Positions 21,807 through 24,495 of a stretch of DNA of 52,623 bases are shown in pieces. This DNA comes from a bacterium. Its GTDB lineage: Bacteria; Vulcanimicrobiota; Vulcanimicrobiia; Eremiobacterales; Eremiobacteraceae. How positions within the stretch are numbered: the first letter of the stretch is position 1; the number at the start of each line of letters is the position of its first letter. A program made the translations under genes and the position numbers. Location of the stretch: positions 1 to 52,623 of the forward strand of contig CADDZI010000011.1 in the NCBI GenBank assembly GCA_902812405.1. Direction: 5' to 3'. The notes beneath the pieces were generated by a model. That model saw nothing but the letters and a program-made list of their open reading frames with translations. It was not told the DNA's origin and did not search any database.

Positions 21807-22337
21807 TTAGCGGCCGTTGAGAAACGCGGAGATCATGTCCCAGTGGGCGGCGGGCGCCATCCCTTGCGCGACCACGGTGCCATGTTCGTCAACCAGGTAA
21901 AAGACGTCCATCAATCCTTTGGGGTCCAGAAGCAACGTTTGCTGCCGGGTGAGAACGCCCCAATACCAATTTGGTGCATCACCCGGCGAACCGATCCCGG
22001 CCTTGATTGAGGCGAGGCTAGGTCCGGAACCGCCCAGATTGTCGTAGGCTTCCATTTCCACCAGCGCCGCGTGTGCGCGCTGCAGATCGGCCACATGTTG
22101 GGCCATGAGCGTGGAACCGGCCTGACACGACGGACACCAGGTCGCCATCACCCACAAAATGTACTTGTGCCCTCGCAACCGGGCCGAATGCAGCGTCCTC
22201 CCGTCGAGCAGGCTGTAGGTGACGGGCGGCACTCGATGTCCGATATCGACGGCAGCCGGTCCGGCAGACACAGCCGGTCCGGCAGTCAAAACAGAGAGCA
22301 CGCCCGCGACCAGGCAAACTCGCAGCAAGGCATTCAT
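21807..22337 (-). CDS. Secreted thioredoxin-like (TlpA/redoxin) protein of the mercury locus
   Basis: A 176-aa exported protein. Residues 1-25 are a signal peptide (MNALLRVCLVAGVLSVLTAG, then PAVSA). The mature part is a thioredoxin fold with the redox motif WCPSC (Cys68 and Cys71) after YILWVMAT. The C-terminal LLDPKGLMDVFYLVDEHGTVVAQ strand-turn is typical of the TlpA/redoxin family. Its ATG overlaps the stop of the Cys-Cys membrane protein gene by ATGA, so the pair is coupled and shares one promoter opposite merA. A role in reducing or handing over thiol-bound Hg(II) in the periplasm is attractive but inferred. A general disulfide reductase is the alternative. Confidence 0.85.
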   Translation of the reverse strand: MNALLRVCLVAGVLSVLTAGPAVSAGPAAVDIGHRVPPVTYSLLDGRTLHSARLRGHKYILWVMATWCPSCQAGSTLMAQHVADLQRAHAALVEMEAYDNLGGSGPSLASIKAGIGSPGDAPNWYWGVLTRQQTLLLDPKGLMDVFYLVDEHGTVVAQGMAPAAHWDMISAFLNGR

Positions 22338-22885
22338 GACGATGCTTCCTTTCGACATGGGGGGTGTGTCTGCGCTGCCACCGAAACGCGGCAGACCGCA
22401 GTTGCGCTCCGCGCCGCCAACCACAGGGATGCGAGCACGGCCGCCACAGCCACGCCGATGAATAGGCCAAAATCGCGGGCAAAGAACGAGGCATAACGGC
22501 CGCTCAGACGCAAGACCGCCGGCGCCGAAGCCCCGGCCGCCGCCAAGGCGCTCGGGATGAGGCTCGTGCAACACAGGCTGCTGGGCAAGATCCCGGCCAG
22601 GATGCCGCTCAACGACAGCGCGGCCGGTCCTCGGCCGCCGTGCGGGCGAACTGCGTTAAGCGCAAAGGTCAGAGACACGCCGATGCCGAGAATGACTGAG
22701 GCAAGGGCTTCCCCAGGCGTGAGAAGTTGGAGGGCCGACCAACTGAAGGCACCATAGCGCCCGGCGGGCAGAGCCACAAGGTAACCGATGGTCAGCGGTA
22801 CACCCAGCCCTCCCAGGAGCAGCAGCGACCGTCGCCGGGCCGGCGGCGTGAAGGCGATGTGCAAGGCAGCTCGCAAGGTGTCCAT
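22334..22885 (-). CDS. Four-helix membrane protein with vicinal Cys-Cys, mercury-transporter-like
   Basis: A 183-aa integral membrane protein with four predicted helices: LLLLGGLGVPLTIGYLVAL, ALASVILGIGVSLTFALNAV, SGILAGILPSSLCCTSLIPS, and FGLFIGVAVAAVLASLWLAA. Helix 3 carries adjacent cysteines (Cys105-Cys106). MerT, MerC and MerF transporters also use vicinal cysteines in a helix, though in MerT the pair is in helix 1, so this is not plain MerT. A terminal cysteine (Cys177) lies in the last residues. I chose the ATG giving MDTLRAALHI because the promoter ends 13 bases before it. It faces merA and is coupled to a thioredoxin-like gene. Hg(II) uptake feeding MerA is the best guess; no activity is proven. 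Confidence 0.7.
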   Translation of the reverse strand: MDTLRAALHIAFTPPARRRSLLLLGGLGVPLTIGYLVALPAGRYGAFSWSALQLLTPGEALASVILGIGVSLTFALNAVRPHGGRGPAALSLSGILAGILPSSLCCTSLIPSALAAAGASAPAVLRLSGRYASFFARDFGLFIGVAVAAVLASLWLAARSATAVCRVSVAAQTHPPCRKEASS

Positions 22886-22927
22886 TGACAGCCCATACAT
22901 TATAGGATTATGATATGAAAAAGTCAA
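22885..22927. promoter_or_regulatory. Two interlocking divergent sigma70-type promoters of the mercury locus
   Basis: Plus strand, toward merA: -35 TTGACA (22885-22890), 18-base spacer, -10 TATGAT (22909-22914). Minus strand, toward the membrane protein: -35 TTGACT (22922-22927), 17-base spacer, -10 TATAAT (22899-22904). The cores overlap completely, so both cannot be occupied at once. The merA -35 box also touches the start codon of the membrane protein gene. The segment is strikingly AT-rich compared with its surroundings. An imperfect CATA...TATG dyad (22894-22916) covers both -10 boxes and could be an operator; no regulator gene lies nearby. Confidence 0.75.
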
Positions 22928-22961
22928 CCCACACACCAGCGTGAAAAGAAGGAGCAAGGCT

Positions 22962-24341
22962 GTGTCCGAATCCGGCTACGATCTCGTCATTCTGGGAAGC
23001 GGGTCAGCCGCATTTGCGGCCGCCATCCGAGCCCGCTCGTACGGGGCCCGCGTCGCCCTCGTCGAGGCGCACACGCTGGGAGGAACCTGCGTCAATGTCG
23101 GATGCGTCCCCAGCAAGGTGCTCCTTGAAGCGGCTCAGCGCCGCCATGATTGCCCGCCGACGGCACAGACGATGCAGGAGGCCGTCGGCCGCAAGGACGA
23201 GCTCGTGGCGCACCTGCGCCGGGTTAAGTACGAGGATCTCCTTGCCCGCTACGACCTGGATTTGGTACGGGGAGAAGCGAGCTTCGAGGATGCTTGGACG
23301 GTACGCGCCGGCTCGCGCCTGCTGCGCGCCGGCGCCTACATCATTGCAACCGGGGCGTCTCCCAACCCGCCTCCCATCCCGGGACTGCGGGAGGCTGGTT
23401 TTATCACCAGCACCGAGGCCCTCGACCTGCGTGCCGCTCCGTCCCGTTTGGCCGTCATCGGCGGCAACGCCATCGGGCTGGAGTTAGGACAGTACTTTGC
23501 GCGCATGGGTAGCACGGTTGCAATTTTCGAAGCCCTCTCACGAATCGCGCCCTTTGAGGAGCCTGACTCAAGCCGGGCCTTGCACGACGCCTTAACCGCC
23601 GAAGGCCTCGCCATCTTTACCGGCGCACGGATCACGTCGGTGCGTACAAGCGCAGAGCGGCGCGTCCTCATATTATTCATGGACGCTGCCGGCGCCGAAC
23701 GCGAGTGGGAAGCGGATGCTATCCTCGTTGCCACAGGCCGCCGTCCGAATACCGACCGCCTCAATCTCAAAGGGGCGGGCGTCCGCACGACCCCCGGGGG
23801 CGCCGTGGCCACGGATGCCTATCTGCGGACCGACAGCGGCCACATCTTCGCCGCCGGCGATGTCACGGGAGCACCCCAATTCGTCTATGTGGCCGCATAC
23901 CAGGGAGGGCTGGCCGCCGACAACGCTCTCGGAAAACTACCCATTCCCCAAAACCTGGATGCCGTGCCGCGTGTCATCTTCACGCAACCTCGTCTAGCCG
24001 CCGTCGGTGAGACCGAGGAGCAGGCTCGCGGGCGTGGCGCGGCCGTCGAGACGGCTGTCTTGGACCTCGGAGAAAGCGTTCCGCGAGCGATCGTCAACCG
24101 CCGGGGCGGCATCTTGAAGCTGGTGGTCAGTCGGGGCACGCGCACCATTCTCGGCGCCCATATGGTCGGCGAGCATGCCGACGAAGTGATCGTCGCCGCC
24201 ACCTACGCCGTCCGGTTCAAACTGACAGCTGCCCATCTCATCGAGACCTTCCACCCTTACCTGACGATGGGCGAGAGTCTGCGGCTGTGTGCGCAGGCTT
24301 TGGATGTGGATCCCGCGGCGCTTTCCTGTTGCGCCGCCTGA
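22962..24341 (+). CDS. merA: Mercury(II) reductase
   Basis: Flavoenzyme that reduces Hg(II) to volatile Hg(0) with NADPH. The 459-aa protein has the FAD motif LVILGSGSAAFAAAIRAR, the redox-active pair in GTCVNVGCVPSK (Cys43, Cys48), an NAD(P)-binding motif VIGGNAIGLELGQ, FAD motif GHIFAAGDVT, and the C-terminal Hg-binding pair LSCCAA (Cys456-Cys457) that separates MerA from other disulfide reductases. There is no N-terminal heavy-metal-associated domain. The GTG at 22962 is chosen because AAGGAG lies 7 bases before it; an earlier in-frame GTG at 22941 overlaps that site. It diverges from the Cys-Cys membrane protein and thioredoxin-like genes. Confidence 0.95.
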   Translation: MSESGYDLVILGSGSAAFAAAIRARSYGARVALVEAHTLGGTCVNVGCVPSKVLLEAAQRRHDCPPTAQTMQEAVGRKDELVAHLRRVKYEDLLARYDLDLVRGEASFEDAWTVRAGSRLLRAGAYIIATGASPNPPPIPGLREAGFITSTEALDLRAAPSRLAVIGGNAIGLELGQYFARMGSTVAIFEALSRIAPFEEPDSSRALHDALTAEGLAIFTGARITSVRTSAERRVLILFMDAAGAEREWEADAILVATGRRPNTDRLNLKGAGVRTTPGGAVATDAYLRTDSGHIFAAGDVTGAPQFVYVAAYQGGLAADNALGKLPIPQNLDAVPRVIFTQPRLAAVGETEEQARGRGAAVETAVLDLGESVPRAIVNRRGGILKLVVSRGTRTILGAHMVGEHADEVIVAATYAVRFKLTAAHLIETFHPYLTMGESLRLCAQALDVDPAALSCCAA

Positions 24342-24364: not shown

Positions 24365-24495
24365 TCGGTCGCGCCAGCGCGACCGCTACACAACCTCGTG
24401 CGGTAGGGCGTCCGCACGATGGGACCTTCTGTCGCGCAAACGCACGGTCGGCCAAGGCCGACCGCTACAGTCGGTCGCGCCAGCGCGACCGCTAC
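24365..24495 (-). repeat. Three hairpin repeats downstream of merA
   Basis: Copies at 24365-24389 and 24471-24495 have stem GGTCGCGC/GCGCGACC with a CA loop. The copy at 24446-24468 has stem GGTCGGCC/GGCCGACC with AA loop. All are minus-oriented and end GCTAC. They occupy most of the 169-base gap between merA and the PilZ gene. Confidence 0.8.

Follow-up and report, generated by a model that had tools for sequence, protein, structure and literature searches.

A mercuric reductase locus with a MerT-related membrane protein and a redoxin as putative Hg(II) carrier in Eremiobacterota and DPANN archaea

How Hg(II) could reach a mercuric reductase whose gene is neighboured by a secreted redoxin, and not by MerP, is the question raised by the locus characterized here (Table 1), which lies in a window of 52,623 nucleotides, the whole stretch of DNA that was analysed. 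In mer operons, the periplasmic protein known to carry Hg(II) is MerP. Like the classical operons of Tn21 and Tn501 (merR-merT-merP-merA), the locus combines MerA with an inner-membrane protein that has a Cys-Cys pair and with a CxxC protein outside the membrane, and its divergent promoters overlap; unlike them, it has a redoxin and not MerP, a predicted four-helix transporter, an ArsR-type and not a MerR operator, and a MerA without the NmerA domain. Three genes and their motifs had been described in an earlier note, and gene positions and translations prove all of them, with their coordinates, to be correct; its view of the site as a mercury locus, where a Cys-Cys membrane protein occurs together with a secreted redoxin that would stand in for MerP, gains support from a genuine MerA and from the conserved linkage of the genes. 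In the reading that we consider fairly probable, the locus is an ArsR-controlled module for Hg(II) uptake and reduction in Eremiobacterota and DPANN archaea, in which the redoxin would replace MerP as the carrier.

Table 1. Features of the locus (positions in the window)
Feature	Position	Strand	Remarks
Redoxin gene	21807..22337	-	176 aa; secreted thioredoxin-fold protein, TlpA/ResA-like
Asp144 codon	21906..21908	-	assigned to the thioredoxin cis-Pro position; invariant in 39 homologues
WCPSC motif	22125..22139	-	residues 67-71; W67, C68 and C71 invariant in 39 homologues
ATGA overlap	22334..22337	-	TGA stop of the membrane protein gene / ATG of the redoxin gene
Cys-Cys membrane protein gene	22334..22885	-	183 aa; four predicted helices; second half a divergent MerT hairpin
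Cys165 codon	22391..22393	-	after helix 4; >=90% conserved (41-row alignment)
Cys105-Cys106 pair	22568..22573	-	helix 3; invariant in 41 homologues (LCCT..IP)
merA promoter	22885..22914	+	TTGACA-18-TATGAT, 11/12 match
ArsR-type operator	22897..22916		putative; ACATTATAGGATTATGATAT; consensus ATATCAT-N6-ATGATAT; between both promoters
Membrane protein-redoxin promoter	22899..22927	-	TTGACT-17-TATAAT, 11/12 match; overlaps the merA promoter, face-to-face
merA	22962..24341	+	mercuric reductase, 459 aa; divergent from the membrane protein-redoxin unit

The merA product is, judged by its TIGR02053 score (490.7 bits against a curated cut-off of 454.45), a genuine mercuric reductase, and its best PDB matches are mercuric reductases as well. 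The gene starts with GTG, with AAGAAGGAG upstream, the active site is GGTCVNVGCVPSK, with the redox-active CxxxxC, and the protein ends in LSCCAA with its Cys-Cys pair; an NmerA domain is absent from the N-terminus. Just past merA, at 24367-24389 and 24473-24495, lie two palindromes of the GGTCGCGCCAGCGCGACCGCTAC type, a short REP-like repeat which, variants included, has 15 copies in the window against 0.01 expected, the 13 others lying elsewhere in it. An Rfam scan across the whole window gave no match.

The membrane protein is the more difficult partner to place. Taken alone, it has no match in Pfam or NCBIfam or among PDB sequences, and a fold search with its model gave no significant match, which is no surprise with a helical membrane protein of this small size. 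Four main helices, with the Cys-Cys pair in the third, are predicted by AlphaFold2 (pLDDT 76) and hydropathy, and in the alignment of 41 homologues the invariant positions are L104-C105-C106-T107, I110-P111 and a handful of others, with Cys165 nearly invariant. Profile-profile comparison with ten MerT sequences matches the first hairpin of MerT, together with the Cys that follows it, to residues 86-169 (hhalign 96.7%, E 3.4e-10, against at most 8.5% for the reversed and 20 shuffled controls), the region of Cys165 being aligned with a MerT stretch that ends in a Cys after helix 2. MerT (PF02411) is also the leading meaningful Pfam match of the family, with hits in 6 of 41 members (best E 6.6e-5); single members score below the gathering cut-off or not at all, whereas the families of MerC, MerE and MerF have no match at E<=1 among the 41 homologues. 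Because of this profile match, with its low controls, and the Pfam result, the protein is best regarded as a distant relative of MerT with two extra N-terminal helices, the similarity covering only a part of it: the helix hairpin, the Cys-Cys pair in its first helix and the Cys after its second are shared, but two helices precede the hairpin, which sits at the C-terminal end, and the third helix that follows the Cys loop in MerT is absent. The protein had been called an atypical transporter, to be checked with Pfam and HHpred; it is atypical in its four helices and in finding no Pfam family by itself, but the comparison of profiles recovers the MerT hairpin and makes it a divergent MerT relative and not an unrelated protein. 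MerH of Mycobacterium marinum is a four-helix protein. Two relatives (L024:6678-7430 and L032:6788-7375) have a fused extra N-terminal stretch with a Cys-Cys of its own, and in a close relative of the former (L025:4336-5019) the Cys-Cys helix of the membrane protein is deleted.

The operon pairing with a redoxin, together with the lack of CcdA/DsbD in most archaeal carriers, could also be taken to mean that the membrane protein is no transporter at all and that it acts as an electron conduit of the DsbD/CcdA type, feeding the redoxin. This is hard to credit, as the 41 homologues have no match to DsbD_TM, the two Cys residues are adjacent in one helix and not distributed over two, and the profile match is to MerT.

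The linkage of the genes was followed at two scales. Among 148 related genomes the membrane protein is found in 16, a MerA above the cut-off in 17 and both in 13 (Fisher test of co-occurrence, p 8e-13, a value inflated by relatedness); in the relatives the redoxin gene lies directly 3' of the membrane protein gene wherever the contig permits, and then comes merA, either downstream or divergent. A scan for the LCCT motif in genomes of about 85,000 species yielded 42 loci, 15 from these bacteria and 27 of an archaeal type, and as the exact motif was required other lineages may be missed. The archaeal-type loci come nearly all from metagenome-assembled genomes (MAGs) of DPANN archaea (Micrarchaeota, Parvarchaeota, Nanoarchaeota), the exceptions being one labelled 'bacterium' and one from Marsarchaeota; they contain the redoxin in 27 of 27 cases and merA in 24 of 27, with a recognisable arsR between them in most, and many show the ATGA overlap. 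Conversely, a search of the relatives with the redoxin (E<=1e-12) returned 17 loci, of which 15 are the bacterial loci in which the membrane protein had already been found; of the other two, one adjoins arsR and a MerA-like gene and one lies at a contig edge. According to the earlier note, homologues lying mostly apart from merA would refute its reading; instead, merA is present in 13 of the 16 relatives with the membrane protein and in 24 of the 27 archaeal-type loci. The pairing of membrane protein and redoxin is obligate, its linkage is conserved in two domains, and with such conservation the neighbourhood of the three genes is not due to chance. Searches with the membrane protein of plasmids (tblastn) and of viral contigs gave no match. 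Thirteen members of the host's family lack both the membrane protein and MerA, which would suit a lateral gain of the module in the host, loss being possible as well. In one relative there is a second arsR-redoxin set (L112:3179-5520 in G022); it includes a divergent MerA-like gene, and between them no intact gene for the membrane protein is seen.

It should be added that the reductase and the pair appear not always to have travelled together. In the MerA tree the window sequence clusters with those of L023 and L032 alone (100/100), set apart from the MerA proteins of other Eremiobacterota loci and of archaea (tested against a single MerA clade, the AU result is marginal, p 0.037), whereas in the tree of the membrane protein-redoxin pair the window and L023 are nested among carriers of a second MerA type. 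The disagreement of the two trees on these two loci indicates that the association of the pair with MerA arose more than once, the simplest reading being that merA was exchanged while the pair stayed. In three genomes of one genus the pair occurs without a MerA above the cut-off, two of the three having a MerA-like protein with an in-frame TGA. Near the pair in L031 (4627-5991) and L033 (11272-12675), MerA-like oxidoreductases have such a TGA, which may encode selenocysteine, at the position of the first Cys of the active site (GGT-TGA-MNVGC) and are without the LSCC tail, and in another member of the phylum (L049, G118:C326:3684-5063) a MerA match with one in-frame TGA adjoins MerR and a MerT-P fusion.

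The redoxin is the partner on which the proposed replacement of MerP depends. Its model has a thioredoxin fold (pLDDT 89), among solved structures ResA, TlpA and DsbE are closest to it, with ResA best in both profile and fold comparison, and an HMA domain of the MerP type (ferredoxin-like, GMTCxxC) has no match in it; an N-terminal hydrophobic stretch is read, by eye, as a putative signal peptide. Like the TlpA/ResA/DsbE thioredoxins, it would be an exported protein with WCxxC, but it differs from them in an invariant Asp at the cis-Pro position, in its MerT-like partner and in archaeal carriers that are usually without CcdA/DsbD. In a MAFFT alignment Asp144 falls in the cis-Pro column, which is occupied by Pro in ResA and in four paralogous redoxins of the host genome, and in the model it opens strand 144-149, the strand that the cis-Pro of thioredoxins precedes; the HMMER alignment to ResA has a one-residue gap at Asp144, so that the assignment depends on MAFFT and on the start of the strand in the model, and is strong but not structural proof. 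According to a survey of this fold (PMC2757866, citing Su 2007), the cis-Pro is more conserved than CxxC itself, and it may prevent metal binding.

These observations bear on whether the redoxin carries metal or reduces thiols. As a periplasmic thiol reductase of the TlpA/ResA type it would keep the Cys pair of the transporter, or thiols of the envelope, reduced or free of Hg without carrying Hg itself. Its fold, its solved relatives and the retained WCxxC agree with such a role, as do the CcdA/DsbD-like proteins of the host genome and the induction by Hg(II) of tlpA in Thermus thermophilus (PMC6445937). However, canonical members keep the Pro where this family has an invariant Asp, the redoxin is paired with one transporter and is not of general occurrence, and the CcdA/DsbD membrane domain that would supply electrons is absent from 12 of the 13 archaeal carriers tested, all of them MAGs of unstated completeness. 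It is also absent from one of four bacterial carriers. Gaps in the MAGs or other electron donors possibly account for the absence in archaea. Nevertheless, the invariant Asp144 and the usual absence of CcdA/DsbD in archaeal carriers favour a predicted metal-binding role over that of a reductase, which we consider unlikely, if still worth keeping in mind.

A second locus of the mercury type in the same genome (contig C55, L044:6042-7573) places a redoxin beside a MerT of the usual kind. It has, in a row, tRNA-Sec, arsR, a MerT gene whose product exceeds the Pfam cut-off and is thus a classical MerT, and a redoxin gene that contains a TGA. Read through this one TGA, the redoxin is lipoprotein-like with the motif PT-U-PLC, and the genome has selB; hairpins after the two in-frame TGAs examined are no better than those of shuffles, and therefore do not by themselves prove selenocysteine insertion. 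The protein is probably a mercury-linked selenoprotein, and it too has Asp at the cis-Pro position. Similar arsR-MerT-redoxin sets are present in other members of the class (L098, L101). The earlier statement that classical MerT is missing thus applies to the locus but not to the host genome. With its Asp-bearing redoxin, the set on C55 lends support to a partnership between redoxins and MerT-type proteins in this host, and a wider scheme is conceivable, which we put forward tentatively and with rather less confidence than the module itself: redoxins would have become extracytoplasmic Hg(II) carriers through replacement of the cis-Pro by Asp, and would serve two transporters, the four-helix MerT relative with a CxxC redoxin in bacteria and DPANN archaea, and classical MerT with a UxxC selenocysteine redoxin in Eremiobacterota.

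Control of the locus appears to be of the ArsR type. A promoter search of the region found two promoters against 0.6 expected. A matrix built from the promoters of eight relatives has its top site of the window between them (15.1, against 9.4 for the next), and at two mismatches or fewer from the operator consensus this is the sole site in the genome of 2.32 Mb; merA and the membrane protein-redoxin unit share this one predicted operator. A MerR operator was considered but dropped: it would have a spacing of 19-20 bp, whereas the spacers here measure 17 and 18 bp, and it is the ArsR operators of the relatives that the site matches. In the relatives a CmtR-like arsR adjoins the membrane protein gene and the operator, whereas at the window locus there is none; the only close ArsR in the host genome is the one on C55, which is 55% identical, lies behind a similar operator site (12.9) and matches HTH_metalloreg with 87.5 bits against a cut-off of 55. 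We infer that it controls the window operator in trans. MerR is absent from the locus, as claimed before, but it is replaced, apparently in trans, by an ArsR-type regulator whose operator is conserved. Cys72, Cys76 and Cys118 are invariant in all 14 ArsR proteins compared, an arrangement that resembles the thiolate site of CmtR.

As CmtR is a Cd/Pb sensor, the module might instead be for a soft, thiol-seeking metal other than Hg, such as Cd, Pb, Cu or Ag, or might export metal and not import it, MerA being one of several outputs. The C55 ArsR is closest to CmtR (72.6 bits, below the equivalog cut-off of 150), the three genomes with the pair and no MerA above the cut-off would be accommodated, and many carriers are MAGs from acid mines, which are rich in many metals. 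Against this, the partner found most constantly is MerA with its LSCC tail, drawn from separate MerA clades, and the hairpin is MerT-like, which makes mercury the better candidate and another metal an improbable one.

For the Hg(II) module, the following course of events is proposed. Outside the membrane, the CxxC of the redoxin would bind Hg(II) and pass it by thiol exchange to Cys105-Cys106 of the membrane protein; from there it would move to Cys165 on the inner side and on to the C-terminal Cys pair of MerA, which would reduce it to Hg(0). The thiolate sensor of the ArsR/CmtR type would repress both units via the one operator until metal releases the repression. That Hg is the substrate, that it is bound and transferred in this direction, that it induces the genes and that the redoxin is a carrier and not a reductant are inferences from the sequences compared here.

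To our knowledge, the archaeal mer operons reported to date consist mostly of merA with or without a regulator, and no report of a redoxin partner in mer operons was found in the open-access literature. No redoxin is listed in the tables of a survey that covered 272 mer operons (PMC3466566). The same survey shows that control of merA by ArsR is established for the mer loci of Sulfolobus and Streptomyces lividans, and that archaeal operons often have merA alone, that of Sulfolobus having ArsR and TRASH; unlike the window locus, none of these ArsR-regulated archaeal and actinobacterial loci is described there with a transporter-redoxin pair. MerA homologues have been recorded in 22 Micrarchaeota and 10 Parvarchaeota genomes, in a part of PMC8261052 that reports no operon partners for them, whereas the linked pair was found in the present analysis.

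The recurrence of the pair in tiny archaea suggests a second, unrecognised way of handing Hg into the cell for its destruction. If this is true, DPANN archaea and an uncultured bacterial phylum would gain a full pathway of Hg uptake and reduction, an unnamed protein family would obtain a function, and the invariant Asp would offer a natural test of the proposal that the cis-Pro keeps thioredoxins from binding metals.
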